Assembly (NCBI GenBank): GCA_021203325.1
Contig: JAJQBL010000018.1
Location: forward strand, 1-64,000
Reading direction: 5' to 3'
DNA length: 64,000 bases
DNA from: Clostridiales bacterium
Lineage (GTDB): Bacteria; Bacillota; Clostridia; Oscillospirales; Oscillospiraceae
Shown: in pieces, positions 1 to 17,367 of the stretch
Numbering within the stretch: the first letter of the stretch is position 1
Layout of the letters: every line of letters begins with the position of its first letter
The notes under the pieces: model-generated
The model's input: the letters and a program-made list of their open reading frames with translations, nothing else
Database searches by the model: none
Told to the model about the DNA's origin: nothing
Program-made: the position numbers and the translations under genes

Positions 1-378
1 CTGTCTGGCTTTGATACCTCCAAGGTGGCAGATATGAGATGGATGTTTTGTGGTTGCCATGCGCTAACCAAATTAAACTTGTCCGGCTTCGATACCTCCA
101 GGGTGACAAATATGAGCAGGATGTTTTTTGCTTGCTGTGCGCTAACCAAATTAAACCTGTCCGGCTTTGATACCTCTAAGGTGGTGGATATGCGTTATAT
201 GTTTTTTAACTGCTACTCTTTGCAATCACTGAACCTGTCCGGGTGGGATACCTCCAGCGTAAAGCGTATGGAAAGCATGTTCTCCGGCTGCAAATCTCTG
301 ACCGAGTTCAACCCGCTCTGGCTGAACACCGCCAACGCAGACACAACGGATATGTACACCGGTACCCGCTGGGCGTAA
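1..378 (+). CDS. BspA-like/DUF285 leucine-rich-repeat surface protein, 5'-truncated at window edge
   Basis: Repeats of the type LTKLNLSGFDTSxVxxMxxMFxxC; frame is open from base 1. Confidence 0.8.
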   Translation: MSGFDTSKVADMRWMFCGCHALTKLNLSGFDTSRVTNMSRMFFACCALTKLNLSGFDTSKVVDMRYMFFNCYSLQSLNLSGWDTSSVKRMESMFSGCKSLTEFNPLWLNTANADTTDMYTGTRWA

Positions 379-474
379 ACCGATAAATCACAGCGCACAG
401 GAGACGCGGCGATGGGGATTTGGCGTTTCCTGCAGTTAGAAAGAGGATACATCTTTGGAAAGGTTGGATGCGTT

Positions 475-2199
475 ATGAACCGGAAGATCGACCTGCGCCG
501 CTATTGTAGCGAGGAAACGGCAGGCGCGGGCGAACAGCTCCTGCAGGGCGTTACCCACGAGAGGCTGGAGCGTCCGGAGGACGGGAGCCTCTGGGTGTCG
601 GCAAAGGTGGTTGACTTTTTCCACTTTGTCAGCCATGCATCGGCCACCGCGTCCGACGGCGTGATCTCCGACTTTCGCTGTGACTGCCCCAGCGGGCGAA
701 AAGGCCGCTTTTGCCAGCACATTGCCGCATTGCTCCTGTACTTCGATGAGGCCCTTGCCGCCTCACCCTCCGCAACGGAACCGGAGGAAGCGCCGCCGGA
801 GGAGGAGCCATTCGTTTTCGAGGATAACGACACGCCCGCAGCGGCGCCCTTCCCGGACGGAGCGGATGCAATCGACGAAATGCCGCAGGAGGAACCCTTC
901 ACGTTCGAGAAAGAGGACGCAGCCGATGGAGAACCGCAGGAGGACTCCTTCGCGTTCGAGGACGATGACACGCCCTCAGAGGCGTCCCTCCCAGTCGGGG
1001 AGGATGTGCCGCCCGATGATGGGCAGCCCCATCGTTCCATGGAGATTTTGTTTGGTCATCGGATAGAGAACGGGGAGGCGGTCTACTGGCGGCCCAACGA
1101 CACAGAGCAGGTGTTCCACACCAATATGGGCATTATCGGCACTATGGGGACAGGCAAAACCCAGTTCACCAAGTCCCTCATCGCCCAGATGTACCGCCAG
1201 CAGCAGAACAACTTTGACGGACAGCCCCTCGGTCTGTTGATTTTCGACTACAAAGGGGATTATAACGGGACAAAGGCGGACTTTTGCAGGGCTGTCCCCG
1301 CCCGCGTCCTGACCCCCTACATGCTGCCCTATAACCCCCTGGCCCTCAACCGGACGCGGAAGTTCCGGCCGCTGCTGCCGCTGCACACGGCCAATGTGTT
1401 TAAAGACACCGTTTCCAAAATCTATGGCCTGGGCCATAAGCAGCAGCAGACCCTGCTGGACTGTATCATGAAAGCCTATAAAGCCCAGGGCATCGACCCG
1501 GAAAACGAGGCCACCTGGGGCAGAAAAGCCCCCACCTTCGCGCAGGTCTATCAAATCTTCCAGCGGGAGACAGAGGGGCGGATGCCGGATTCTCTGACGG
1601 CGGCCATGAACAAACTCCAGGGGTTCCATATTTTTGAATCCGACCCGGCGAAGGCCCAGTCCCTGGCCAATGTGCTGAGCGGCGGCATCGTGGTGGTGGA
1701 TCTCTCCGGGGATGATGAGGATATCCAGAACCTGGTGGTGGCCATCACCCTGGATCAGTTCTATGCCCAGATGCAGACCTATGGTTCCAGCAAAACCGAC
1801 GGCAGGTATCGGCAGCTGCGCAGCCTGATTTTGGTGGATGAGGCGGACAACTTTATGAGCCAAGACTTTCCCTCCCTGCGAAAAATCATGAAAGAGGGCC
1901 GGGAGTTCGGCGTGGGCGTGATTCTGTCCACCCAGAGCCTGTCCCATTTCGTGGGCGGCAGCGACGACTATTCCCGCTATGTGCTCACCTGGGTCGTGCA
2001 CAACGTCAGCGACCTGAAGCAGCGGGACGTGGAGTACGTCTTTAAGCTCCAGCCCAAGAGTCCGGAGATCGCCGACACCTATGGGGCCATCAAGGGCCTG
2101 TCCAAACACGAGAGCATTGTCAAATTCTCCGAAGAAGCGCCCTTCGCCATCCGGGATCGGGCGTTCTGGCAGCTGTGCCGGGAGTGGGGTATTTCCTGA
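475..2199 (+). CDS. SWIM zinc-finger plus HerA/FtsK-like P-loop ATPase fusion
   Basis: SWIM motif CDCPSGRKGRFCQH near N-terminus; Walker A GTMGTGKT; Walker B LILVDEADNF; start chosen at ATG 475 inside ORF 412..2199. Confidence 0.8.
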   Translation: MNRKIDLRRYCSEETAGAGEQLLQGVTHERLERPEDGSLWVSAKVVDFFHFVSHASATASDGVISDFRCDCPSGRKGRFCQHIAALLLYFDEALAASPSATEPEEAPPEEEPFVFEDNDTPAAAPFPDGADAIDEMPQEEPFTFEKEDAADGEPQEDSFAFEDDDTPSEASLPVGEDVPPDDGQPHRSMEILFGHRIENGEAVYWRPNDTEQVFHTNMGIIGTMGTGKTQFTKSLIAQMYRQQQNNFDGQPLGLLIFDYKGDYNGTKADFCRAVPARVLTPYMLPYNPLALNRTRKFRPLLPLHTANVFKDTVSKIYGLGHKQQQTLLDCIMKAYKAQGIDPENEATWGRKAPTFAQVYQIFQRETEGRMPDSLTAAMNKLQGFHIFESDPAKAQSLANVLSGGIVVVDLSGDDEDIQNLVVAITLDQFYAQMQTYGSSKTDGRYRQLRSLILVDEADNFMSQDFPSLRKIMKEGREFGVGVILSTQSLSHFVGGSDDYSRYVLTWVVHNVSDLKQRDVEYVFKLQPKSPEIADTYGAIKGLSKHESIVKFSEEAPFAIRDRAFWQLCREWGIS

Positions 2200-2226: not shown

Positions 2227-3963
2227 ATGAAGATCGGGATTGATTTTGGAAGCACCTATTCTACGGTTTCTGCCTATAACAGAGTGGATGACCGCGTGGA
2301 GGCGCTGACACTGATGGAAGGGGAGCCGGCCAGCATTCCCTCTGTGGTCAGCATCAGCAAACGGGGGCAGGTCACCTGCGGCCAGGCGGCGAAAAGCCAG
2401 GTGGGAAGAAAAACCGTCAAAATCTATGAAGCCTTTAAAATGCTCCTGACAGAGCAGAATCAGGCGGTTTTGCGCAGCCACGGGTACGACGAACGGTACA
2501 CCCCCCGATATATTACCAGATGCTTCCTGAATAATGCGTTACAGGGCATTTTGAAACGATATGACGATGGAAGAGGACTGGAAAAGGTCTGCATCTGTGT
2601 TCCGGAGATTTGGAGCAGGAAAGTGCGGACGCTGGACGGTCGGGTCATTCTGAGGGACATCCTGCAAAACGATCTGGATGTTCCGGTGGGGGCCGTTCAG
2701 GTGGTCAACGAACCGGATGCGGCCAGCGCCTTTTTTGCTTATAACTATGAAAAGACAACGGGAAGACGATTTGACGGTCATCTGCTGCTGATCGACTACG
2801 ACGGCGGCACCCTGGATATTACGCTGACCAGGGTGTTCCCCAACCAGAACGGAACAATGGAGATTCAGCAGGTGGACAGCGACGGCGAGGGTGAGAACTA
2901 CCCCAACGCACAGGGAGAGTACACCATTGGCAAAGCCGGCATTGCCTATATGCAGACGCTGGCCATCCGCGCCATGCGGGACTGCGGTGTGCTGGGTGAA
3001 GATGAGACGCCCGCATACACCAGCCCGGCGTTCCTTTCCGTGGTGCGGGATCTGGAGAGCCAGCTCAAATCTGCGGATTGCATCGAGAGCATCGAGGACG
3101 CATTTGAGATCTACGGGTCCTATCGGGATTTGGAGCAGATTCTTCAGGACGAACCGGACCCGGAGGAAGAGAATCCGATTTCTCTGGAATACAACGGCGT
3201 TGAATTTCCTGTGACCTGTCAGCAGATGTATACCGTTTACCGTGAGACCATCGAAGGTGTTGTAGCGGAGAAAATTGGGAAAATCAACCAGTCGGTGAAG
3301 CGTTTTATCCATGCCGACCCCTGCAATCCCAACTCCGGCGCCCAGGATAAATTCAAAATCGCCCTGGTGGGGGGCTTCGGCTCCTTTTACCTGGTGCGGA
3401 AACAAATCGCGGAGATTTACAAACTGGACGCCAACGAGAGCAATGACCCGCGCACCCAAAATATTGCGGCGGACAGACGGGAGCTGGCCATTGCTCTGGG
3501 GGCGGCGCTGCTGGCGGAGGGGCAGGTCATCCTGCAAAAGACCGCCAAGTACTCCATTGGCCTTTACGCGGTCACGCAGGATAATATCGGCAAGAGCCAC
3601 TATGGCATTCAGTGTCATCAAATCGTAGAGCCGGGCAGGCCCTATTTTCTCCGCAATGATGACAGCCTGCCGGACACCCCGGACAATCGCGTCACTTACA
3701 CCGCATTGCGGGAAAATATCAATACGTTTGTCATTGCGTTTCCCGGATGTCAGGACAGCGTGAAAATGGTCCTGAAACAGGAGATGCGGGATCGGTTGGC
3801 TGCGCTGCCGGAGCTCGGCTTATGGAACTGCGGCTTTTCCATGGACGAGAACGAAATTGTCACATTCCATGTGGTGCCCCGCCAGGGGATGCCGGGACAG
3901 GAGTATACGATTCCGTTGGAGCGCTATGCACAGATGTTTGAGATGACGGAGGTGACAACCTGA
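2227..3963 (+). CDS. Divergent Hsp70/actin-fold ATPase (DnaK-like)
   Basis: IGIDFGSTYSTVSAY (phosphate-1), LLIDYDGGTLDITL (phosphate-2), IALVGGFGSFYLVR (adenosine loop). Confidence 0.8.
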   Translation: MKIGIDFGSTYSTVSAYNRVDDRVEALTLMEGEPASIPSVVSISKRGQVTCGQAAKSQVGRKTVKIYEAFKMLLTEQNQAVLRSHGYDERYTPRYITRCFLNNALQGILKRYDDGRGLEKVCICVPEIWSRKVRTLDGRVILRDILQNDLDVPVGAVQVVNEPDAASAFFAYNYEKTTGRRFDGHLLLIDYDGGTLDITLTRVFPNQNGTMEIQQVDSDGEGENYPNAQGEYTIGKAGIAYMQTLAIRAMRDCGVLGEDETPAYTSPAFLSVVRDLESQLKSADCIESIEDAFEIYGSYRDLEQILQDEPDPEEENPISLEYNGVEFPVTCQQMYTVYRETIEGVVAEKIGKINQSVKRFIHADPCNPNSGAQDKFKIALVGGFGSFYLVRKQIAEIYKLDANESNDPRTQNIAADRRELAIALGAALLAEGQVILQKTAKYSIGLYAVTQDNIGKSHYGIQCHQIVEPGRPYFLRNDDSLPDTPDNRVTYTALRENINTFVIAFPGCQDSVKMVLKQEMRDRLAALPELGLWNCGFSMDENEIVTFHVVPRQGMPGQEYTIPLERYAQMFEMTEVTT

Positions 3964-3964
3964 T

Positions 3965-6142
3965 ATGGAATTTCAACAGCTCAACGCCGCCATCCGGAAC
4001 AACGCCGAACGGGAACCCACCATTTATATGGCGCTGTGCATGGTAGATTCTCTCTTTCGGGATATCCGGGATGAATCCGGAACGTATATTTACAACTGCC
4101 CAGTGGGGGACGAGACCCTGCCCACCAAGCTGGCGTGGCTGTGCCGGATTATCAACCAAATCTATGACAAAAACCGGGACGAACTGGAGCGTGACCGCAC
4201 CCGGCTGGACAAGATGATGCAGCAGATGGCCGGCACGGAACAGAAGCTGGACGAACTCTCCGGCGTATATGAGGAACGCTCCAAAGCGCAGGTAAAACTG
4301 AACGCAGCCAAAGCAGAACTGGCCCACCGACAGGAGACCCGGAAAACCTGTCAGGCGCTGGACGACGAATGCGGGCAAGTGGAGCAGGAGATCCAGCGCC
4401 TCCGCCAGTACGACCCGGAGAAATCCCGGGAGACGCTGGACAGGCTGAAGGCAGAGGCCGCTGAACTGAACCAAAAGCAAACCGCGCTGACCAGAGCGTG
4501 CATAGAGCAGGAAACCGAAAACAAACCGCTCCGCGCAAAAGTTGCGGAGCTGGAGGCGGGCCTCCGGACGCTGGAGCAGGAAAAGGCGGACCGCATTGAG
4601 AAGGCGGCGGCCCTGCAGGGGAACCTTGACGAACTGAACACTGAAGTCGGCCTGTTAAAGGAACAGGAATCACAGCTTCAGGCAGAAGTCGACCAGGCGC
4701 AGGCGGAGCGGGACAGCAGGCGGCAGTCTGTACAGGATGCACAAACAGAACTGGATGGACTGAACGCGGAAAAAGCAAAATTGGAGGGTCAAATCATCAC
4801 CCTAAACGGAGAAATTGCCACCGCAAATACAGCGCTCGCCGACCTGCACACGCAGCTGGAGGCGCTGCAAATCCAGCTCCAGACAAAGGAGCAGGAAAAG
4901 CAGGCCGCGGCCGATCAGATGGCAGCCCTGCAAGCCGACAAAAGCGCGCTTGAGACCGACATCGAACAATGCAAAACACAGTACGAGACCCTCCAGCAGG
5001 AATACCGGACACTCGTCGTCACCTGTAAGCGGAAGCAAAATGACATTGCGGCGCAGCAGGCGCAGACAGAGGATTACCGCGAAAAAGAGCTTGCTCCGGT
5101 GGAGGCACAGCTGCAAGAAGCCAAGGGCGAATATGACCGGGCGCAGCAACAGAAAGCGGAAAAAGAGCAGACCCTGACAGAACTGAGAACGAATTACAGC
5201 GACGCAGTGATAGCAATCGCTCTCATCGAAGGGGATATTGAAGCAGAAGGCGTGAACTGGCGCACCAAGGATGAGGAGCGAAGGGCCAGGGAGCAGAAGC
5301 GGGACGATTTGAAGGCGCAGGTTCATCAGCTGGAAACCACCCTTACAGAGTTGACGAATGAGTTAGGCGCCTTGCAGACCCAGGTTTACAACCTGACGCA
5401 TGGGGACATTCCGCATGTCGACGCCTCTGTAAAAGAAGAAGAGAAACGAAAGCAGGAACAGGAACAGGCTCTTGAGGCCCAGACCCGGAAGAAGGCGGCT
5501 CTTGAGGCGGAGAATGAGGCGCTTGCGCTTCGGCTGGCGGAGCTGGAAACAGATGTGAACGAAAAGAACGCAGCCTATCAGGAATTGACGGCCCGATATG
5601 AAACAAAAAATGCAGAGCTGGAATCGCTGAAAACCCGTCTGTCGGAATTGCAGAACAATACGGACGCCGTAACGCTTCGCATCATTCGGCAGCAGTTGGA
5701 GGATAAAATTGCTGAACTGGAAAAAGTACAGCAAGAGACCCGTGAGGCGGAAGATTCCCTCAAAACCAGACAGGATGAACTGCAGCGTGCCCAGCAGGCG
5801 CGAGATGACTTAAAGAATCAAATCAGGGCGCTGGACGGGGAAAAGCGGAAAATCGATGCGGAGATCGCTGCGCTGACGCCTATGACTGCGCCAGAGCTGC
5901 GCCAACAGGTGGAGGCTGCGAGGCAGCGGCTGCTCACCCTGGAGCATACGCATAAGATGCTGGCCGCAGCCATCCGTACACTGGAGACTGCGCTGGGCCA
6001 GAGTGAAACGGAAGAACTTGATTTGAAACGCCTGGAAACAGATTTGAATGTGCTGCACACGTCTGTAGAACAAATTCAGCAGGAACTGCTGAACTGTGCA
6101 GAAAACTGTAAAAATCACCTGAAGTGGAGAAGTGCGAAATGA
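3965..6142 (+). CDS. Long coiled-coil protein (SMC/filament-like, no P-loop seen)
   Basis: 725 aa, extended E/Q/K/L/A heptad-like pattern from about residue 70 to the end. Confidence 0.75.
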   Translation: MEFQQLNAAIRNNAEREPTIYMALCMVDSLFRDIRDESGTYIYNCPVGDETLPTKLAWLCRIINQIYDKNRDELERDRTRLDKMMQQMAGTEQKLDELSGVYEERSKAQVKLNAAKAELAHRQETRKTCQALDDECGQVEQEIQRLRQYDPEKSRETLDRLKAEAAELNQKQTALTRACIEQETENKPLRAKVAELEAGLRTLEQEKADRIEKAAALQGNLDELNTEVGLLKEQESQLQAEVDQAQAERDSRRQSVQDAQTELDGLNAEKAKLEGQIITLNGEIATANTALADLHTQLEALQIQLQTKEQEKQAAADQMAALQADKSALETDIEQCKTQYETLQQEYRTLVVTCKRKQNDIAAQQAQTEDYREKELAPVEAQLQEAKGEYDRAQQQKAEKEQTLTELRTNYSDAVIAIALIEGDIEAEGVNWRTKDEERRAREQKRDDLKAQVHQLETTLTELTNELGALQTQVYNLTHGDIPHVDASVKEEEKRKQEQEQALEAQTRKKAALEAENEALALRLAELETDVNEKNAAYQELTARYETKNAELESLKTRLSELQNNTDAVTLRIIRQQLEDKIAELEKVQQETREAEDSLKTRQDELQRAQQARDDLKNQIRALDGEKRKIDAEIAALTPMTAPELRQQVEAARQRLLTLEHTHKMLAAAIRTLETALGQSETEELDLKRLETDLNVLHTSVEQIQQELLNCAENCKNHLKWRSAK

Positions 6143-6648
6143 AATGTCTGGTATGCGGCGAAATTTTTGAAGGCAACGAATGTCCCAGGTGCAGGTTTCC
6201 TGTGGTCAATTTTCCCGGCGATCCGGAGGCGGGGCTGAAAATGCTCCAGCCGATGATCGAGCAGCATCGGAGGGAGTTCCTGAGTCGCTTCCAGGTAGGC
6301 GTGACGGCCTGTTACTGGAAGGACGCGGACGGCAAGCTGGTTCTGGATCGGAAGGAGCGCATCCCCGTGGGAACCGGCGCAGAGCTGATGAACGGGGAGG
6401 TTTGGCTGCCCCGGAAATTTGCCCGGATTCCGGACGTGCCGGAGCTGCAGGTCGGGGTCTATATCGACAGTGATGAATACCACCGGGAGATGCAGGTGCC
6501 TCTCCCCAACCTCATGGGCAAGGAACTGCAGGAGCTGGGCATGAAGGTCGTAACGGTTGATTCGGAGTGCAGGCTTGTGCTGCTGCTGCGCAACAGCACG
6601 GAAGGGCCGGTAGCCTCTGAAGAGATCGCGCTGCTGGGGAAGGACTGA
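6139..6648 (+). CDS. Small protein with N-terminal zinc ribbon
   Basis: MKCLVCGEIFEGNECPRC (CxxC...CxxC); ATGA overlap with the upstream stop at 6139-6142 implies translational coupling. Confidence 0.65.
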   Translation: MKCLVCGEIFEGNECPRCRFPVVNFPGDPEAGLKMLQPMIEQHRREFLSRFQVGVTACYWKDADGKLVLDRKERIPVGTGAELMNGEVWLPRKFARIPDVPELQVGVYIDSDEYHREMQVPLPNLMGKELQELGMKVVTVDSECRLVLLLRNSTEGPVASEEIALLGKD

Positions 6649-6674: not shown

Positions 6675-8252
6675 TTGTTTTCATCCAGTGAACTGATTCA
6701 CTTCGTGTTTGCCAACGACGACGATGACTATTACTGCGGCGGTTTGCTCCGGCTGGATCTGAATCAATACCTGTGGATGAAGCTTCACGAAGAGCACTAC
6801 CATGCGGTTTATTTCCTCAGCCGCTCCGATGCGAACATCTTTTCCACCAAAACCTGTGGCGATAAAAAAAGCAGTTCCTTCACCGTCAAGCAATCCATCT
6901 GGAGCTGGGTTTTAGGCACTGAAACAGAAGAGGAACAGCAAGGGAACTGGCTGTGTCGTCAGCTGGAAGGAGGCACGGACAGAAAGTCCGCCTTTATCTG
7001 CCCTCTGGATGATTTTTGCCGGCTTCTGTCGTCAGAGACATGAAAGGGTACGCTGGGCTCTTTTGCCAGCCTGAGAAAACGAACAGGAATTTTTGTGCTG
7101 ACCGCCCCGGTAACGGCAGAGGGGTCGCAAAGGCTGCTCCTGCAGAACCCCGTGTTTGACCGGCTGAAGGAAACCGCCGTCACAGAAGCCAGAAATGGCG
7201 GCGTGCGGCCGCTGTATCCCTCCATTCAGGAGAAAAAAAGGGACAGCATGCTCTTCCTCAACACCTTCCGCAGGGATCGGATTCAGGATCTGCTGTGCCG
7301 TCTCTCCTTCGAGGAGGGCCGTATCCTCCCGCAGGATCAGCTGGATGCCGCGGCGGACTACCTGACCCGCTATCTGAATTGCACTGCGCTGCGGAAGGCG
7401 GAGCCGCTCTTTGACGGAGGCAGGCTGAACTGGAATTTCAAGTACCGGGACCTGTACGAGCGCCTCCAAAAGGGCGAGGTCCTGCAGCGGCTGCTGCTTC
7501 AGAGCTGGCAGGCCCATCAAAGCGGTTCCCTGCGGCAGTGGCGGGAAGATGCGCCGCCAGGCATCCTGCGGGAGAAAGGCAGCTATGCCGAGCGGTGCCT
7601 GCAGCTGACAGTGCCGGAAACAATGACAGATGCGGCGCAATGCGGGGTGATTCTGGAGCAAATCCGGGAGGCCGTTCGCACCCCGAAGAACCGGCTGGAA
7701 AGTGACCGTATCGTTGCAGAATGCAAGGATTTGTTCACCGAATTGGACACAGCAAAGAGCAATGGGGACGGCGATACTTATCGGCGCACTCTGTATGCGA
7801 TTCTGTTTTGCGTTCAGTGGGTGTATGTGGACAAGGGGCAGGAAGAAAAAATCTTACAGACTGTCAAAACGCTCAAACAAATCATTCAACTCTCGGCAGA
7901 CTACAGCCAGCGGAAGAAACGTCTGGCGATTGACCGGCAAACGCTGCAAACGTGGAAGAATGAACTGACCGAAAAGAAAATACAGCAGCAAACACAGCTG
8001 CTGGAGCTCCGGAAAGGTATGCTGAACCAGCTTGAGGACGCAATGAGCAGCACGATCATCGGCCTGTCGTCAAACAGCGATTCCGATGACGTTCGTGAGC
8101 TGAAGAACGCATTGGATGACATTTTGCGCGAAGCTGAGGCTGAGAAGCAGGCAAATGAACCGGAGGAGCCCCAACAGGAAACGACGATGGACGAAGCGCC
8201 GGAAGAGCTTGCATTTCATGACAGCCTCTATGATTACCTGCCGCCAGACTGA
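6675..8252 (+). pseudogene. Uncharacterised operon protein interrupted by in-frame TGA at 7041-7043
   Basis: ORFs 6675..7043 and 7095..8252 share one frame; the intervening codons read KGTLGSFASLRKRTGIFVLTAPV; TTG start with upstream GGGAG. Confidence 0.6.
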
Positions 8253-8453: not shown

Positions 8454-9735
8454 ATGGCAAACGGAAGACCCGGTTCAGACGCCTGGAGGGCAGGCGAATC
8501 AAAAAAGAGCGCAAATCCCTTTTCCGCATGGAGGGCGCGCCGCAAGGAACAGCAACGGGAGATGGAGGAATCGGTGGCCAGAAAGGTCACAGATGATACG
8601 GCGCATAATGAGTCCCTCATCATCGAAGAACTCAGCAGCATTGATTTTGCCCACAGCCGTCTGCCTCAGAAGGACCTGGAGCGCAAGTCCAACCCCAAGC
8701 AGACCTGCGGCGACCTGGAGTATGCGGCGCGGTACCTGCAGCAGGTGCTGCTGAAAGACCCGCAGATCATTCAAATGGATATACGCGAAATCGATCAGAA
8801 GCTGATTACTTTGGCCACGCTCTTCCGGCAGGCAGTGGAGCAGGGCGACAAACATATGGCGTACGCCGCCAAGGGCGCACTGGCGCGGGGGTTGATGGAC
8901 ATCCGCACCCGCATCCCGCAGAATCAACCGGAACTGGCCAGGCAGTTCGTGGTGCTGAACGCGAAATATCTGGAGGAATGGATCACACTGGTAAATTTTG
9001 CCCAATCGGTGGATCATTTGGAAAAGGACGCGGAAAATCTGCAGGCCGACCAGAAAAAGGCGGAGGAACGGAACAAGAAAAAACTGGAAGAGATCAAGTC
9101 CATGCTGAAGGATGACCCGGAAAAAGGCGAAGCGTTTCAGCATATCCTCGATCACGACACACAGGAGGACAGAGCCCATTGGACGCCGGCCCAGCGGGAT
9201 GTGCACAGGATGCTGGTGGATCAGCGGCTGAGCCAGATCAAGATGGATCTGAGCGGTCAGCGGCTTGTGGCTTATCAGATGAAGCTGAGCGCCAAGGAAA
9301 ACGAACTGAGGGCGCTCCAGGCCAAGTTAACCACTCTGCCCGTGGTGGAAGATCCTGACCTGATGAACAAATACAATGAGATGATGGACGAACTGTTCCA
9401 GGAGCTGACCGAGAGCGACGCGGAAATCGATGAGATTTTGAAATCCGCTGATGAGATCGAGGGGCGGCTCAAGATGCTGGAGAGGGCCCCCCGGTGCGGT
9501 TCGGGCCAGAGAAGTGGCTACGGAACAGGCGCAAAAAGCGCTGGAGCAGATCAAACAGGACGATGAGGACTATGTGAAATCGGCGCAGCGCCGGAACAGC
9601 GAGCGGTTAAAAAAGCTGGGTCTTAAATCCAAGGAGGAGCTGGAGGAGCTCCGCAGGCAGGCAGAGGAACAGGAACAGAGCGCCTTCCAGCAGGAGGAAG
9701 AGACCGAAGAGGAAGGCGAGCAGCTCTTCAATTAA
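8454..9735 (+). pseudogene. Highly charged helical/coiled-coil protein, frameshifted near 9484-9492
   Basis: ATG 8454 with RBS AAAGGAG; ORF 8280..9566 continues in another frame as ORF 9451..9735 across GGGCCCCCC. Confidence 0.6.
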
Positions 9736-9783
9736 GGCTGCCGCGCAGCAGCGCAGCAGTCCGTGCAGAAAGGAGCACATCAT

Positions 9784-10533
9784 ATGTCAATTTGGAGTGG
9801 CATGACCGGCAGGCTGGAGGATGTTCAGAACCAGCTGAACGATTTGAAGCGAAAATTTAAATTCCGGAAAGCGAACAAGAACCGGAAAGAGGCGGCAGAG
9901 CTGTAATATTCCCTGCTGGATTGCGCGGGGAAACTGGAAGTATGCAGGAAGGATTTTAACCGCACCATTCAGCAGCAGAGCCGGAACATCATCGCGGGGA
10001 AGCAGGATGGGATGGACGTCCAAATCAACGAGCAGATCCTGTGGGATGCGGCGCTGGGCTATATGCTGGTAAAGGACGCGATTTTTGCCCTGGGAACCGT
10101 GCCGGAATATGACAGCATCGCCCATGCCTATGAGCTGTTGGAGGCCGCCACCCGGCAAATTGCCAACAAGGGAAGCAATCCTTTCCGGCTGAAAGGGAAG
10201 ATTCCGGGAAAGGAACGGGACGAGTACGGCTATCTCACCGCCGAGAGCACGCTGAAAGAGAAGGAGGAGGTGCTGGACGGATTTTTTGACGAACTGAAGC
10301 AGACAGGCAATATCGAGGAGTGCCTGAAAAACAGGCGTTCCTCGGAGAATGTGACCGCGGAACGACGCAGCCAGTATGCGGAAAAGACCATTTCCAAAGG
10401 CAGCGGCCAGTCCAAACGAGAGAATATCGCCGCCCGGTTCAACAGTATACCGGATGATGCTTCCGGCCTGGACGACATGGGGGATGACCTGGATGCCATG
10501 AAGGACATTTATCCGCCCGAAGATGACGACTAA
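9784..10533 (+). pseudogene. Small helical protein with basic N-terminus and acidic C-terminus, interrupted by in-frame TAA at 9904-9906
   Basis: RBS AAAGGAG before ATG 9784; MSIWSGMTGRLEDVQNQLNDLKRKFKFRKANKNRKEAAEL*YSLLDCAGKLEV... continues in the same frame to ...LDDMGDDLDAMKDIYPPEDDD. Confidence 0.6.
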
Positions 10534-10545
10534 GGAGGGGGCAAT

Positions 10546-11949
10546 ATGCGCAAATACGACATCAGCGGAACCTCTTATCTGGACCGGCTGTCCGAAAAGA
10601 ACAGCCAGTACATCAACCTGATCCGGAAGGCGGAACGCATCAACCGGGAAAGGGGAGGCGCGGTCTCTAAAGAGGAAGGTGAGACTTATTTGGAGGCGGC
10701 CAGGGTTTGCCAGGAGATCCGGGACGAAAACCTCTCCCAGCGTGCCGTTTATACGAAATGGGAAATGCGCCGGCTGGAGTGTGAGGAGCGCGCCGAAGAG
10801 ATCGCCGACATCATTGCACCGGTTCCTCCGGTTCCTCCTGCTCCTCCGGCGGAGCCGATGCCAACGCCGGAGGAAGCGGCTCCGCCGACCCGGAAGGAGC
10901 CGGTGAAGGCAGCCTCAAAGCCGCAGAAAGCCTCAGCCCCCGTCAAAGCCGCGGAGACGACGCAAACCGACTCCGGGTTCACAACCAAAAACGCAGTCAA
11001 AGATGTTTCCGCTGAGACCATCGAGAAGTGGTACAAGCCGCAGCCCAACCACGGGTTTGACGATGTGGTGGGGATGGATGCGCTGAAAGAGCGTCTGATC
11101 AATGAGGCGGCCAGCATTGGCTGGACCCGGACGGACGCCGTGCTTCAAATCGCTCCGCTGCAAAGCTATCTGCTTTACGGCCCTCCCGGCACCGGAAAGA
11201 CCTTTATCATCGAAGCATTTGCCAGGGAACTGATGGAGAAGCACGGCTTCAAATTTATCCAGCTCAACGGCGGCGACATCCACGCCAGTCTGGTGGGCGT
11301 GGCGGAAAAAACGGTCAACATTGCCTTCCAGGAGGCCATCGACAACGCCCCGTGTATCTTCTTTATCGACGAAATCGAGGGCGTCTGCGTTGGGCGAACC
11401 CAAAAGGCGGAGGGGCATGAGAAGCGGCTGACCGTGGCGTTTTTGGAAGGCTATGGCAGGCTCAGCGCATCCGGCAAGCGGGTGGTTTTTATGGGAGCCA
11501 CCAACCATCCCGGCCAGATCGATGTGGCGTGGATGGATCGTATGAAAGCAAAAATTCGCATCCCCCTTTCCGATGAGGATTCCAAAGAGGCGTATTTTGC
11601 CCGCAAGTGTGCCTCGCTGACGCTGGAAGACGGCTTTACCTTCCGAGACATGGCGGAGGCCACGGACAACTACAGCTATCGGGACCTGGACAGCCTGTGG
11701 TCTACCATTACCGCCCAGATGAAGCAGCAGGCGATTGAAACCTGCCGCGTTTACGCCGCTGATGGGATAGTGGATCAGGAGCAGACTGACATCGCCGCCA
11801 GCGAGGCGCTGACAACCGGGAAGGTCCGCCTGTCCCGGGCGCTGTTCCATGACACGCAGAAAGTACTTCCCCCCTCTGACAAGACGGAGATTCGCCAGGA
11901 GCTGGAGGAATTTGAGCGCAGCGTCCGCGCCGGCAGTGGGGCGCAGTAA
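10546..11949 (+). CDS. AAA ATPase of Vps4/katanin/spastin type with MIT-like N-terminal helical domain
   Basis: FDDVVGMDALKERL, Walker A LLYGPPGTGKT, Walker B CIFFIDEIE, sensor-1 VVFMGATNHP, C-terminal VRLSRALFHDTQKVLPPSDKTEIRQELEEFERSV; N-terminal helices then Pro-rich linker. Confidence 0.8.
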   Translation: MRKYDISGTSYLDRLSEKNSQYINLIRKAERINRERGGAVSKEEGETYLEAARVCQEIRDENLSQRAVYTKWEMRRLECEERAEEIADIIAPVPPVPPAPPAEPMPTPEEAAPPTRKEPVKAASKPQKASAPVKAAETTQTDSGFTTKNAVKDVSAETIEKWYKPQPNHGFDDVVGMDALKERLINEAASIGWTRTDAVLQIAPLQSYLLYGPPGTGKTFIIEAFARELMEKHGFKFIQLNGGDIHASLVGVAEKTVNIAFQEAIDNAPCIFFIDEIEGVCVGRTQKAEGHEKRLTVAFLEGYGRLSASGKRVVFMGATNHPGQIDVAWMDRMKAKIRIPLSDEDSKEAYFARKCASLTLEDGFTFRDMAEATDNYSYRDLDSLWSTITAQMKQQAIETCRVYAADGIVDQEQTDIAASEALTTGKVRLSRALFHDTQKVLPPSDKTEIRQELEEFERSVRAGSGAQ

Positions 11950-11966: not shown

Positions 11967-13127
11967 ATGGCGGCGGAAACGGCGAAGGATTGGGCAGCGC
12001 AAATGGAGCGCAGGTCGGGCGCCTTCGAGCAATGCCTTGAAACCCACTGGACGGACGACTCCTGTGGCTGGGGTGCGTTATTGCAAAACCTCTGGTGGGC
12101 CGAAGAAGCAACCACCCGCCCCTCCGGCCTGCTGCTGACCGGCCCGGAGGGCTGCGGCCGACACACGTCTGCTGCCCACATGGTTCGGTTCCTCCGGGAG
12201 CAGGAATTTGGCAGCGTATGGCTTTCCGGCGACGATCTGCTGGCAGAGGGCGCCGTCTCTGAGGCCAAAGAGAAGCTGGATGCGCTGCTAGATGACTTTT
12301 GGGAGCAGGAGAAGGGCCTCTGCCTGGTGGTCGAGCAGCTGGAGGGCCAACCCGGCCGGAAAGAGCTGCTGTCCTATCTGGGGAAGCTCCTGTGGGATTA
12401 CTGGCTTGCGCGGGAGGACGGAGCGGATTCCCGCCTGTTTCTCATCCTCATTGACAGCGGACGGGGCATCCCAAGCCTGCTCCGGGAACGGCTTCAACGG
12501 TGCCGGATGACGCTGCCCGACCTGGAACACCGCAGACGCTTTTTGGATAGCAGCGAAGATTTGAAAAGTTATGTCCCACTGGACGACTGCGCGGCGTGTA
12601 CCGAGGGATTTACCTATGCGCAGCTGACAGATCTGGTGCGGGATCTGCGGATGCTGATCGATGCGACAGATGCGCCGGTTAGCCGGGCGCAGATGGAACA
12701 GCTGGTCGAGGAACAGCGGGAGGAGACGCCCGCCGCTCAGTCGGTTCGTCGCAGGGCTGCCCTGGAGGAACGGCTGATGCATTTGGCGGATGAGCTGCCC
12801 GCGCTGCTGAAAAATGCCTCCTTTGGCGGCGGAACGCCGGTTGAGGCGCACCAGACACAGGCCGAGAAACTGTCCCCACAGACCGGGGCACCGTCTCCGG
12901 ACTACGACAGGATGACAGAGGAGGGCCGGCGGGCTTCCGTGGAGACGCAGCCCGTGAATGAACTGATTGCCGACCTTTATGGCGGCGCAGAAGCGGCCAA
13001 ACTTCTGATGGCAGAGGTACGGCAGGCACAGCAGGCCATGGTGAGCGCCGCGCCAGATGCCGCGGAAACGGAATCCGCACCCGTCCCTGAGACAGAAAAA
13101 ATGGAGGCCAGCGTCGAACAACATTAG
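11967..13127 (+). CDS. Degenerate AAA-like protein, probable inactive partner
   Basis: Walker-A-like LLLTGPEGCGRHT (Lys replaced by Arg), poor Walker B (LCLVVEQLEG); follows the AAA gene with an RBS. Confidence 0.6.
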   Translation: MAAETAKDWAAQMERRSGAFEQCLETHWTDDSCGWGALLQNLWWAEEATTRPSGLLLTGPEGCGRHTSAAHMVRFLREQEFGSVWLSGDDLLAEGAVSEAKEKLDALLDDFWEQEKGLCLVVEQLEGQPGRKELLSYLGKLLWDYWLAREDGADSRLFLILIDSGRGIPSLLRERLQRCRMTLPDLEHRRRFLDSSEDLKSYVPLDDCAACTEGFTYAQLTDLVRDLRMLIDATDAPVSRAQMEQLVEEQREETPAAQSVRRRAALEERLMHLADELPALLKNASFGGGTPVEAHQTQAEKLSPQTGAPSPDYDRMTEEGRRASVETQPVNELIADLYGGAEAAKLLMAEVRQAQQAMVSAAPDAAETESAPVPETEKMEASVEQH

Positions 13128-13237: not shown

Positions 13238-14734
13238 TCAGCCCAGCTCGTCCAGAATACTCCTCTGCCGTCCGCCCAGCAGCAGGGACTGATTGTACTC
13301 CGTGTACTTTTGGCACCCGTTGTCCCGGATGAACTGCATGGAGTAGTAGTTCATGGTCAGCTCGGTGAGGAAAATCACCATCTCCTGGCTCTCGCCGAAC
13401 ACAGTTTCCAGGAAGGTGAAGGCTGCGTCCAGCTTCGCAGAGGTGTCCAGAATCATGGTACGCCGCCGCTCCACCGCCTGGGCAAATTCCTGCCGAACCG
13501 CATCGGCGGCCGCCCTGCCGTCCTGAATTTCCTGGGTCAGGACGCTCTGGTGATAGCGGTGCAGCGTGTCCAGCACCCGGCGTTTGCGGCGCTCCCCGGC
13601 TTTCTCCAGGGTGCCCGCCCGGAGGGCGGCGTCCAGCGCGGCCTGCTTTGCGTCAATCGTATCTGTAAAGCATTTTTCCATGTCAGACCCGCCAGACAAA
13701 CTGGCGATCAGACCTTTCAGTGTGCCGTGGAGTTCGGTGACATAAGCGTCCTCCTCGTTGGCCTTTCCACAGGCTGTGAATAGTGCGCTCAGCAGCAGGG
13801 AGAGGGCGGACAGCCGCTCGTCAAAGGGGGCCTCCCGCAGGCGGCGGACAGTTCTGTCCCCGATGCGTCCGGCCAGAATGTCCTCCACGTTGTAGTCGGT
13901 CTGATACTTCCGGTACAGCTCCAGATAGTTGGCAAAGTCCCTGGCGATGACGGGCTGCTGGAGGTATTGCCCGATGACCGTCTCCGTCACAGGCAGGTCC
14001 AGCCCCTCGCAGGCGTAAATCATCCGGGAAAGGTCCTCCCAGCCCCGGGCGGTGACGAAGCGCTTACCGTCCACCGTGGTTTCGATTTGATAGAAGCTCT
14101 GCTGCTTGATGTCCAGATAGGAGAGGATGGCGGGATGCACCTGCTGTTTGTAAGCGTATTCCTTCCAGACGGAATAGTCCGCTTCAATGTCGATCTTCCG
14201 CACCCGGTCCAGGGTCACAATGTCAAACTCCTTGACACTGCGGTTATACTCCGGCGGGTTGCCCGCCGTCACAATGATCCACCCCTCCGGCACCTGATGG
14301 CTGCCGAAGGTCTTGCACTGGAGGAGCTGGAGCATGGCGGGGGCCAGGGTCTCCGAGACGCAGTTGATTTCGTCCAGAAATAAAATGCCCTCTTTCAGGC
14401 CGGTTTTCTCCATTTCCCGGTAGACGCTGGCGACGATCTCGCTCATGGTATACTCCGTCACCCGCTGCTCCCGTCCGTCAAAGGTGCCCGTCTGGATGGA
14501 GGGCAGGCCGATGGCGCTCTGTCGGGTGTGGTGGGTGATGGTGTAGGCCACCATCGCCACGCCGCACTCCTGGGCGGCCTGATGGGCAATGGCGGTTTTG
14601 CCGATACCCGGCGGGCCCATCAGCAGCAGCGGGCGCTGGGACAGGACGGGGATCACCCAGTCCCCATACTCGTCCCTGGCCAGATAGGCCCGGATGGAAT
14701 GCTTCAGTTGTTCTTTCGCCTGTTTGATGTTCAT
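13238..14734 (-). CDS. MoxR-family AAA ATPase
   Basis: LLLMGPPGIGKTAIAHQAA, GILFLDEINCVSETLAPAMLQLLQ, WIIVTAGNPPEYN; start at ATG 14734. Confidence 0.85.
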   Translation of the reverse strand: MNIKQAKEQLKHSIRAYLARDEYGDWVIPVLSQRPLLLMGPPGIGKTAIAHQAAQECGVAMVAYTITHHTRQSAIGLPSIQTGTFDGREQRVTEYTMSEIVASVYREMEKTGLKEGILFLDEINCVSETLAPAMLQLLQCKTFGSHQVPEGWIIVTAGNPPEYNRSVKEFDIVTLDRVRKIDIEADYSVWKEYAYKQQVHPAILSYLDIKQQSFYQIETTVDGKRFVTARGWEDLSRMIYACEGLDLPVTETVIGQYLQQPVIARDFANYLELYRKYQTDYNVEDILAGRIGDRTVRRLREAPFDERLSALSLLLSALFTACGKANEEDAYVTELHGTLKGLIASLSGGSDMEKCFTDTIDAKQAALDAALRAGTLEKAGERRKRRVLDTLHRYHQSVLTQEIQDGRAAADAVRQEFAQAVERRRTMILDTSAKLDAAFTFLETVFGESQEMVIFLTELTMNYYSMQFIRDNGCQKYTEYNQSLLLGGRQRSILDELG

Positions 14735-14833
14735 AGCCTGTGTTACCCTCTGTCTATTCAAAATCAAGGTTCCCTATGCAACGGATGGGGCGTCTTCCTC
14801 CCGCAGATAGCGCAGCATTTGCTGCCCCTACCG

Positions 14834-16195
14834 TCACAAAATCCGCAGCTCCTCCGGCCCCAGCACCAGCTTGATGGCCCAGGGGGGCACCTCCCGGTCG
14901 GTGTAGTCGTCCTCAAAAAAGACGAAGGCCGTCTCATAGGCCGGTTTCCGCTGGGGATAATCCCCAAAGCCGTCGGTGAAGTAGAGCAGCCCTTTCAGCT
15001 CCCGGAGCTGGCCCTGGGCCAGCAGCCGATCCACATAGGCGAAGGCGGGGCGGAAGTCTGTACCGCCATATCCCTTTACAGTGAAGTCGTCCACAAAACG
15101 GTCAAACTCGGCGGGGGAGTGGAGGACGGTATCCATCTGTACGGCGGCGTCCGACTGGATGATGTGGAGGTTCATGTGCTGGAAAAAGGCGTCCTGCTGG
15201 TGGAGGATGGCCTTTGTCTCCCCCAGAAACGCCTCAATGACCCCGTCAGAGCAGGAATCCGACGTATCAATGACAATGACGAAGTCCTGAATCTTCTGGC
15301 TCTCCTGATATTCCAGCGGTTCGATCAGGGGAATGTCGCCGTACAGCTCCAGCCCGTAGGAATAGAACGCATAGTCGAAGCTGTCCGGGTCCACCCGCAG
15401 CTCCTCCCGCAGGGAGACGAAGCGCCGCAGGAACCGGGCGTAATCGTACCGCTCCCGGTTTTCGATGCGAATCGTCTTTAGCAGCCCCTCGGCCTCGGTG
15501 CCGTGCTGGGCAAAAAAGGTCTCCAGATTGGTCTGGGTCTTTTGGTCGATGTGCTTCCACTTTCCCTCGATCTCCTGGCGCTGAGCCTCCAGCTGGCGGT
15601 GGTCGCCTTCGCCGGAGGCGTCGCCCTCCTGTTCCTGCTCCTGAGGCTCCTGGTTGGGGTCTTTCGGCCAGAACTGGTGGTCGTCCCGGAAGAACTCCTG
15701 CCGGATGCGCAGCTGCTCCTCATAGGAGACGTGCCACCGGGAGAGGGAGCGGTAGACCGCTTCGGCGGTCAGCACCTTGGCGTCCTCGTGGAGCCGGTCA
15801 TAAATCTCCTCCCGGAAGGAGGACTGCATCAGGTTCACCGCCCGGTTGTCAATGCCGTCCAGCACATTTTCCGCGGCGATGTCACAGGCCATGTCCCACA
15901 GATCCGGGTCACGGTCGCCCCGGTTCAGCTCGTGTCGGAACATACAGTGCAGCACCATGTGGAGGTAATACCGGTTCAGCAGCACCAAATCCTCCCGGTA
16001 GAGCTTCATCAGGAAGGTGGGGTTGTAGAGAATGTTGATCCCATCGGTGCCCACCCGGGCGGTGTTCAGGTTCATCTGATACCCCAGGCCGGCCAGGGCG
16101 ATGTCCAGAAACCGCATGGAGAGGTAGATGTCATTCCGCGCACTGGTCAGAATGGCCTCCCCGATGCGGGTCAGTTTTTCCTTATTTTCGTGCAT
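14834..16195 (-). CDS. DUF2201-type metallopeptidase-like plus vWA-like domain protein
   Basis: N-terminal HMVLHCMFRH region; C-terminal DFVIVIDTSDSCS MIDAS-like motif and GYGGTDFRPAF. Confidence 0.75.
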   Translation of the reverse strand: MHENKEKLTRIGEAILTSARNDIYLSMRFLDIALAGLGYQMNLNTARVGTDGINILYNPTFLMKLYREDLVLLNRYYLHMVLHCMFRHELNRGDRDPDLWDMACDIAAENVLDGIDNRAVNLMQSSFREEIYDRLHEDAKVLTAEAVYRSLSRWHVSYEEQLRIRQEFFRDDHQFWPKDPNQEPQEQEQEGDASGEGDHRQLEAQRQEIEGKWKHIDQKTQTNLETFFAQHGTEAEGLLKTIRIENRERYDYARFLRRFVSLREELRVDPDSFDYAFYSYGLELYGDIPLIEPLEYQESQKIQDFVIVIDTSDSCSDGVIEAFLGETKAILHQQDAFFQHMNLHIIQSDAAVQMDTVLHSPAEFDRFVDDFTVKGYGGTDFRPAFAYVDRLLAQGQLRELKGLLYFTDGFGDYPQRKPAYETAFVFFEDDYTDREVPPWAIKLVLGPEELRIL

Positions 16196-16215
16196 GGCAG
16201 CTCCTTCTACCGTCT

Positions 16216-17367
16216 TCACAGGTCAAAGGACTTGTCCGCGCCGGAGGCGAACCCTCCGCCGGTGGCGTCCAGCAGCCGGGAGACGAAGCGGACATTCCCC
16301 GCCTGCTCCGCCGCGTCCAGCATGGTGTCCATCTGCGACCGCTCCAGCTTTCCGGCGGAGAGCAGGAAGTCCAGCCCCGTCAAATCGTCTGTGTTTAGCA
16401 GCACCTGCGCCGCAACGGCGGGATGCTCCAGCAGGAAGGCCCAGTACTCCGCCTCCGGCCCCGGGCGCAGGTCTCTGGGGCTGCGGAGCCGACAGAGGGC
16501 CAGCTCTGCCGCCAGCTCCGGCGGGTCGTCCCGCTTACATTCGTAAAAATAGGTGTCGTACAGGGAAAAGTCGATGTCCCGGTCGCTGAAACAGCCCCGA
16601 TACAGGCCGCCGGAGCCGTAGGTGACGGCCCGGAACTGCCGGGCGGGAATCAGCTCGTCATATTCGTAGGAGTATTCCGGCAGCACCAGGGTCACGGTGC
16701 CCTGGTCGTCCCGTGCGGTGACCCGGACGACCCCCTCAATTTCATCCAGCAGCGCACCGGCGTTCAGCCCAATGCGGAAGGACAGCCGCTCCAGGGCGAA
16801 GCAGTTCATCAGCATCCGGTCGCCAATGGCGGCGACGCTGTCCGGCAAATCCAGCCCCTGCAAATGGGTGCAGTTATAGAAGCAGCAGCGGCCCAGCGTC
16901 TCCACGAAAGGGGGGAGCTGCACCCGCTCCAGACTGCGGCACTCCGCAAAGGTGTAGGCAGGCAGGGCGCGGATGCCCTCGGGCAGCTCCAAATGGGTCA
17001 GCCGGCCGCAGCCCTCAAAGGCCCGTTCCCCCAGCTCCGTCACGCCCTGCGGCAGCTCCAGCCGGGGCAGGACGCGGCAAAAGGCAAAGCAGCGGTCCCC
17101 CAGGGCCCGCACCGTCTCCGGCAGATGCACCCGCCTGAGGGTGTCGTTGTACCGGGCCGCAGGTTTGGGCGGCTGGGCCTCCAGGAAGCGCATCCCCTCT
17201 CCGGGGAGGGCCTCCTCCGGGCCGGTCCCCCCGAAGCAGCCCGCGCCCAGCCAGGTGACGGGGTGGCCGTCAATGGCGTCGGGCAGCATCAGGGCGGCAT
17301 CCGTCCCCACGCAGCGCAGCACCTCTGCCTCCCCCTGATTCAGCCTGTAATAAATCGTCCATGCCAT
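16216..17367 (-). CDS. Leucine-rich-repeat (LRR_5/BspA-type) protein
   Basis: LRR units such as VHLPETVRALGDRCFAFC, LELPQGVTELGERAFEGC; stop precedes the vWA gene start (operon). Confidence 0.75.
   Translation of the reverse strand: MAWTIYYRLNQGEAEVLRCVGTDAALMLPDAIDGHPVTWLGAGCFGGTGPEEALPGEGMRFLEAQPPKPAARYNDTLRRVHLPETVRALGDRCFAFCRVLPRLELPQGVTELGERAFEGCGRLTHLELPEGIRALPAYTFAECRSLERVQLPPFVETLGRCCFYNCTHLQGLDLPDSVAAIGDRMLMNCFALERLSFRIGLNAGALLDEIEGVVRVTARDDQGTVTLVLPEYSYEYDELIPARQFRAVTYGSGGLYRGCFSDRDIDFSLYDTYFYECKRDDPPELAAELALCRLRSPRDLRPGPEAEYWAFLLEHPAVAAQVLLNTDDLTGLDFLLSAGKLERSQMDTMLDAAEQAGNVRFVSRLLDATGGGFASGADKSFDL

Follow-up and report, generated by a model that had tools for sequence, protein, structure and literature searches.

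The H gene and the operon around it

We describe a nine-gene operon, designated A to I, located near the start of a 64,000-nucleotide stretch of the genome of a Clostridiales bacterium of the gut (contig JAJQBL010000018.1, positions 1 to 64,000; hereafter, the window), with emphasis on its eighth gene, H, the product of which, as suggested by sequence comparison, is a bacterial AAA ATPase from the Vps4/katanin/spastin side of this enzyme family. All nine genes lie on the forward strand. H (10546..11949) is an open reading frame (ORF) of 467 amino acids (aa) that encodes a helical N-terminal domain (N-domain), a linker, a single AAA module, and, at the C-terminal end, a helix of the Vps4 type, and contains all the segments quoted in an earlier, sequence-only reading of this DNA. 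Pfam places a single AAA domain at residues 208-341 (E 5.9e-29), and the Walker A (GPPGTGKT), Walker B (FFIDEIE), and sensor 1 (GATN) motifs are unbroken. The AlphaFold2 model (seven sequences; overall predicted local distance difference test score (pLDDT) 65.8, predicted template modeling score (pTM) 0.41) has helices at residues 11-35, 42-61, and 66-90, with pLDDT mostly 74-87 in this helical block, followed by a disordered, proline-rich linker (92-141) and the AAA module, and in the alignment, the C-terminal end of H corresponds to the final helix of VPS4B, katanin, spastin, and CdvC. The order of helices, linker, single AAA domain, and C-terminal helix originally proposed for this protein is confirmed by the ORF, Pfam, the model, and the alignment. 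No membrane segment or zinc-protease domain of the FtsH kind was found: the Pfam scan produced no matches outside the AAA module, and none of the H-family members was flagged by a hydropathy scan.

H was detected in 7 of 301 genomes of the family, 13 of 32 genomes of the genus, and 2 of 87 genomes of a second family, with no further genome in a phylum sample of 399. Given this recurrence within the genus and the existence of relatives in other Clostridia with identities of about 96, 80, 74, and 51%, H is a real, conserved gene and not a chance ORF. The A-I set is also found in loci L010, L012, L013, and L022-L027, in a second Oscillospirales family (L059 and L090), and in additional genomes of the genus (L086, L087, and L089); the carriers among the sampled genomes, all in Oscillospirales, are patchily distributed. 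This nine-gene setting, which the sequence-only reading did not recognize, is more informative than H taken alone. Wherever an operon is complete around H, G is located upstream (12 bases separate the two genes in the window) and I directly downstream, across two bacterial families. Some variation was observed: A is sometimes located at the opposite end, and D was not found in L026.

The immediate neighbors of H are G (9783..10533; profile match at 9796-10527, with one internal TAA), which encodes a helical protein, basic in charge and ending in an acidic disordered tail, and I (11967..13127), a degenerate AAA paralogue of H (H profile match 2.1e-104) with the sequences GPEGCGRHT and VVEQLEG in the Walker A and Walker B positions, respectively; the Walker B motif is broken, and I is taken to be a dead AAA paralogue. 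Upstream of G are E (6675..8252), a helical protein, and F (8454..9735), a helical protein with an acidic tail; the C-terminal half of E is paralogous to F, as demonstrated by profile comparison (hhalign 86-97%). The remaining genes encode a SWIM-type zinc finger protein with a HerA/FtsK-type ATPase domain of the DndH C-terminal kind (A, 412..2199), an Hsp70-like ATPase (B, 2227..3963; Pfam HSP70, 1.4e-9, residues 3-75), a long coiled-coil protein of 725 aa (C, 3965..6142), and a small protein with N-terminal zinc-ribbon-like cysteine pairs (D, 6139..6648), the start codon of which overlaps the stop codon of C (ATGA). Homologues of C are present in the same position in nearly all loci that are long enough, and homologues of D in most such operons. 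Among 121 genomes of the family, B was seen only in the window genome, the other operon carriers being outside that sample. In the closest full relative (L010:6436-13884), there are second copies of F and H, with the second H 72% like the window H and changed in the pore loop and sensor, and in L089 G and H are separated by an additional small open frame (9687-10246) resembling G.

Three genes are interrupted in the window: E by an in-frame TGA (7041-7043), F by a frameshift within a stretch of C nucleotides near 9487, and G by an in-frame TAA (9904-9906). In L010, which is also the closest sampled relative, F and G are intact and E has a break of its own, and all three genes are open in more distant relatives; in L023, a TAG interrupts H. 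The window copy of the operon either is decaying or contains assembly errors. Recoding of stop codons is disfavored because the lesions differ from gene to gene (a TGA, a TAA, and a frameshift) and a TAG is found in the H gene of another genome.

Class of the AAA module and nature of the N-domain

Database comparisons place the AAA module of H among the classic AAA ATPases. The NCBIfam models score it at 102.7 bits (CDC48, the top model), 97.1 (CdvC), 83.9 (PAN), and 68.6 (FtsH), and among the matches listed in a search of PDB sequences, SKD1/VPS4B is the top single-stretch match (91.7 bits), with 79.7 bits for the better Cdc48 domain. Foldseek with the low-confidence H model retrieves p97, Vps4 of Metallosphaera sedula, katanin, spastin, and FIGNL1 at the top.

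A further character is found in the second region of homology (SRH), for which 12 H-family copies (including one degenerate extra copy) were aligned with VPS4B, CdvC, katanin, spastin, Msp1, both domains (D1 and D2) of Cdc48, NSF, PAN, and FtsH. Some of the reference segments came from PDB alignments, and most were checked against PDB chains, the exceptions being those of NSF, Escherichia coli FtsH, and SpoVK. All 12 H copies are free of the two-residue insertion before the second arginine, as are Vps4, CdvC, katanin, spastin, and Msp1, whereas the insertion is present in FtsH, Cdc48, PAN, and NSF. Most of the bacterial and viral AAA proteins from our searches in which the SRH could be read by pattern carry the insertion as well; L040 is irregular.

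In two phylogenetic trees, the H family forms its own long-stemmed clade (99/100 and 100/100), sister to the "meiotic" clade of Vps4, katanin, spastin, CdvC, and Msp1 with support of 71/89 and 87/73, which is suggestive but not significant. In approximately unbiased (AU) tests, grouping of the H family with Cdc48-D1 or Cdc48-D2 yields p values of 0.10 and 0.19, and grouping with Vps4 and CdvC alone yields 0.055. The claim of a Vps4-like AAA domain holds insofar as H belongs to the Cdc48/Vps4 side of the family and shares the SRH deletion; sisterhood with the Vps4 clade is the preferred topology. For the sequence-only reading, a grouping of H with ordinary bacterial CbxX or FtsH proteins would have counted against it. 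An FtsH-type assignment is ruled out by the trees (AU p 0.0025 and 0.022) together with the form of the SRH, but CbxX is not dispensed with in the same way: the SpoVK/CbxX pair forms a separate long branch, and the AU p of 0.52 for its grouping with the H family may reflect only attachment at the root branch. When the long-branched rows were added to the tree, the position of the H family was not settled.

The N-domain had been described as MIT-like. Its three helices are predicted by AlphaFold2, but MIT is absent from the Pfam matches of the window H and from the families matched by most H-family members, and a profile of ten H N-domains searched against PDB sequences with hmmsearch retrieved no MIT chains. 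Comparison of the N-domain with eight MIT sequences by hhalign gave 0.1%; in the controls, archaeal and eukaryotic MIT domains were paired at 68%, and the MIT domains of eukaryotic Vps4 and spastin, both genuine, were missed (0.5%). In a shuffle test, the H N-domains score level with helical control segments. The outcome is negative for MIT but not decisive, and the description kept here is that of a predicted three-helix N-domain.

The upstream protein G and the tails it shares with E

G proteins are about 210-255 aa long, with basic N-terminal helices, a second hairpin, and a disordered tail that is usually acidic. A profile of 13 G sequences aligns end to end with ESCRT-III, with scores of 21.6 and 18.2 compared to maxima of 14.3 and 16.3 among 72 control windows; the control comparison of PspA with ESCRT-III is weak (14.4) and falls below that of G. 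The ESCRT-III reference sequences were compared with PDB chains wherever chains were available. The score is fragile: it ranges over 10.8-19.0 and 3.0-23.0 in leave-one-out analysis and drops to 4.5 under another aligner setting, and an earlier profile of 8 sequences gave no ESCRT-III signal. For these reasons, we regard the weak sequence resemblance of G to ESCRT-III as suggestive only. The G profile does not match PspA; with this result and the uneven leave-one-out scores, neither a PspA nor an ESCRT-III assignment of G was retained. No PspA/Vipp1 homologues were detected in the window genome (G000) at E 0.001, and these proteins are also missing in 38 of the 41 family genomes sampled, with two above the curated cut-off.

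E and G have no detectable homology overall (hhalign 0.4-0.6%), yet their C-terminal tails resemble each other within several operons: D..YDYLPPD and D..KDIYPPE (L010 and the window), Y.SSVP (L022), ILxxRAxRR (L024 and L086), and D.KPPE with DVHPPE (L087). Across 10 operons, the similarity of the E and G tails is greater within than between operons (permutation p 0.0003-0.0005) and is the strongest among the gene pairs tested. Of two operons added later, L087 repeats the pattern, and L089 does not do so clearly. Overlap with Shine-Dalgarno sequences was considered as the source of the shared tails; it may account for the terminal RR but not for the remaining motifs. If the match is real, E and G would share one receptor for both tails, for which, by analogy with Vps4, one would look first to the N-domain of H. 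A second common tail motif, roughly (S/N)EL..(D/E)LF(G/A), terminates the second F protein of L010 and recurs close to the C-terminus of I in that locus, and is also present in an F-like gene (9885-10856) and the tail of I in L087.

A candidate remodeling module, its rivals, and its setting

The interpretation we favor, tentatively, is that H is a Vps4-like remodeler that docks on the tails of the helical proteins of its own operon and remodels their assembly. H would be the ATPase motor of the nine-gene chromosomal A-I module of Oscillospirales and would form a hexamer, possibly together with its dead paralogue I; its three-helix N-domain would dock on the C-terminal tail of G, and probably on those of E and F as well; and pulling on these tails would take apart or remodel an assembly of helical subunits formed by G. 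In favor of this view are the architecture and intact AAA motifs of H, the database, Foldseek, and tree comparisons, the form of the SRH, the placing of G and I around H, the charge pattern of G, and the matching E and G tails. The label "disassembly motor" given to H by the sequence-only reading is plausible as a proposal. A genuine ESCRT-like machine in bacteria, in which a Vps4-type MIT-AAA protein acts on tail-tagged, ESCRT-III-like subunits (G and perhaps E and F) with a dead AAA partner and an attached HerA/Hsp70 module in Oscillospirales, appears quite improbable to us.

Several observations weigh against the interpretation of H as a Vps4-like remodeler. In the window genome, E, F, and G, the putative substrates, are all interrupted, and H and I are open. 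Pore loop 1 of the window H reads SLVG and not K[WYF]xG, the aromatic residue being gone in its subclade; Vps4 grips its substrate through this aromatic, and W, F, or Y occupies the position in classic-clade structures (PMC5716660), so the window H may grip its substrate in another way. Divergent relatives (L022, L024, L025, L026, and L059) retain a K[YF]xG or RYVG loop. The first arginine finger is replaced in all 12 aligned H copies, by aspartate in 11 (D-R in the window H compared to RR). The sister relation of the H family to the Vps4 clade falls short of significance, and placements with Cdc48 and NSF survive the AU test. There is no sequence evidence for MIT identity of the N-domain, a negative result that does not decide the matter, as the control pair of genuine MIT domains was also missed. 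The AlphaFold model of G (4 sequences, pTM 0.61) has no significant Foldseek match in the PDB, with the archaeal ESCRT-III protein CdvB2 at rank 15 (E 0.49). A candidate MIT-interacting motif (MIM1) in the G tails (DELSARLGSAQ in L013) was dropped, given that the coiled-coil control, C, scores as well. Finally, the matching of the tails was seen first and tested afterwards, and the operons tested are kin.

Among characterized proteins, Vps4 and CdvC resemble H in combining a helical N-domain, a flexible linker, a single classical AAA module, a C-terminal helix, and an insertion-free SRH, and in the proximity of the gene to one for a small basic-acidic helical protein; unlike these, H has no detectable MIT sequence, has aspartate in place of the first arginine finger, lacks the pore aromatic in the window subclade, and belongs to a bacterial nine-gene operon in which the ESCRT-III partner is putative. 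Katanin, spastin, fidgetin-like proteins, and Msp1 share the SRH form and the C-terminal helix, and belong to the nearest clade in the trees, and some H relatives keep their K[YF]xG loop, but the H family remains a distinct long-stemmed clade. In bacterial PspA/Snf7 loci with AAA+ ATPases (PMC11237479), a helical, putatively polymer-forming protein is likewise encoded beside an AAA protein and an inactive AAA partner; here, however, I is encoded by a gene of its own, and G is not recognized as PspA. ESCRT systems with both Vps4 and ESCRT-III have been stated to occur in archaea and eukaryotes only (PMC11188069), and the ATPase that would turn over PspA/Vipp1 polymers in bacteria, if there is one, is not known (PMC8281802). 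H, encoded directly downstream of the basic-acidic helical protein G, with its tail match to a further product of the operon, is a concrete candidate near the Vps4/katanin clade and, if the proposal is true, bacteria possess a machine for polymer disassembly of a type that they were believed to lack almost entirely.

The DndH-type HerA ATPase and its Hsp70-like partner suggest a role of the module in DNA handling, stress, or defense rather than in cell division. Although we consider it unlikely, the main rival of the remodeler is a counter-invader operon built on a captured DndH-type HerA, in which H and I would act as paired AAA proteins in regulation or effector assembly, with the Hsp70-like protein as a switch and no ESCRT-like polymer involved. 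A matches the PADLOC DndH model with 598 bits (E 7e-180), aligned at the C-terminal end of DndH (Pfam DUF87, 1.9e-10; SWIM, 0.0019). The closest outside relative of its ATPase domain (G775:C1:481216-482364, L094; 53% identity across 388 aa) lies within an open frame of 1730 aa from a distant Firmicute and is the sole other match to A among 250 genomes of the phylum; judging by its size, this frame is probably a full-size DndH, and the likeness suggests exchange between systems. DndH-related "HerA-FtsK capture" systems are on record (PMC10853773) and, as in DndFGH, share a DndH-type ATPase domain with A, but DndF, DndG, a nuclease, an Orc/Cdc6 ATPase, and a D5 helicase were not found in A-I, where the SWIM domain, the Hsp70-like protein, the coiled-coil protein, and the AAA partners are present instead; neither DndF nor DndG was recognized among the scanned products of A, B, and E-I or of the neighboring MoxR/VWA/LRR genes described below. 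Modules of Hsp70, HerA, Cdc48-like AAA, and leucine-rich repeat (LRR) proteins recur in CoCoNuT defense loci, the extended type III-A variants of which combine Hsp70-like, HerA-like, and Cdc48-like AAA proteins with a dead AAA copy, coiled coils, a zinc ribbon, and VWA (PMC11090510); these differ from A-I, in which McrB/McrC, HEPN, and cold-shock domains were not found and the AAA protein is single-module and Vps4-like. The patchy distribution, duplications, and decay of the operon suit a conflict system, as does the adjoining MoxR-VWA-LRR triad. On the other side, Pfam and PADLOC scans of A-I revealed no nuclease, methylase, or toxin, and a defense-island setting was rejected, as the scanned flanking genes are mostly metabolic or regulatory, with the exception of a protein kinase in L059. 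A mobile-element or phage origin was rejected as well: viral contigs, phages, and plasmids held nothing closer than generic AAA proteins. Given the low genome counts, the absence of viral and plasmid relatives, and these flanks, the operon is, by sequence survey, a rare, patchy, chromosomal module.

That H is an ordinary Cdc48-like unfoldase, engaged in quality control with the Hsp70-like protein B and resembling Vps4 by convergence through domain loss, we judge rather improbable. The top NCBIfam model, the surviving AU groupings with both Cdc48 domains, and the Hsp70-like partner are in its favor, but H combines a helical N-domain with a single AAA module, the SRH deletion is not found in Cdc48, and the distribution is narrow, with a fixed set of partners. 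Least probable is a strict bacterial ESCRT-like machine, with H an MIT-AAA protein homologous to Vps4, G a true membrane-remodeling ESCRT-III, and MIM-type tails: the domain order, the SRH deletion, the position of G beside H with its basic core and acidic tail, the advantage of the 13-sequence G profile over the control windows, and the lack of PspA in the genome agree with it, but the fragility of that profile score, the lack of a significant Foldseek match, the undetected MIT domain, and MIM1 scores equal to those of the coiled-coil control tell against it.

Whether as the tentatively favored remodeler or in a defense capacity, an operon in which a DndH-type translocase is combined with Hsp70-like and Vps4-like AAA proteins would add a new module to bacterial cell biology or defense. 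In the open-access literature searched, the nine-gene operon is apparently undescribed, although absence there is no proof.

The operon is adjoined on the reverse strand (13238-17367) by a three-gene set that encodes a MoxR-type AAA protein, a VWA protein (DUF2201), and a BspA-type LRR protein; the MoxR protein is 97% identical in L010. This set can be likened to the MoxR-vWA ternary systems (PMC7159879), with the LRR protein as the third member. Variable genes are also located beside the operon in several loci (L024:17399-19748, L022:15511-16743, window 25-378, and L059:12246-14150) and encode zinc-ribbon proteins with RCC1 repeats, BspA/DUF285 LRR proteins, and a Ser/Thr kinase with an NPCBM domain, which are possible changeable recognition parts.
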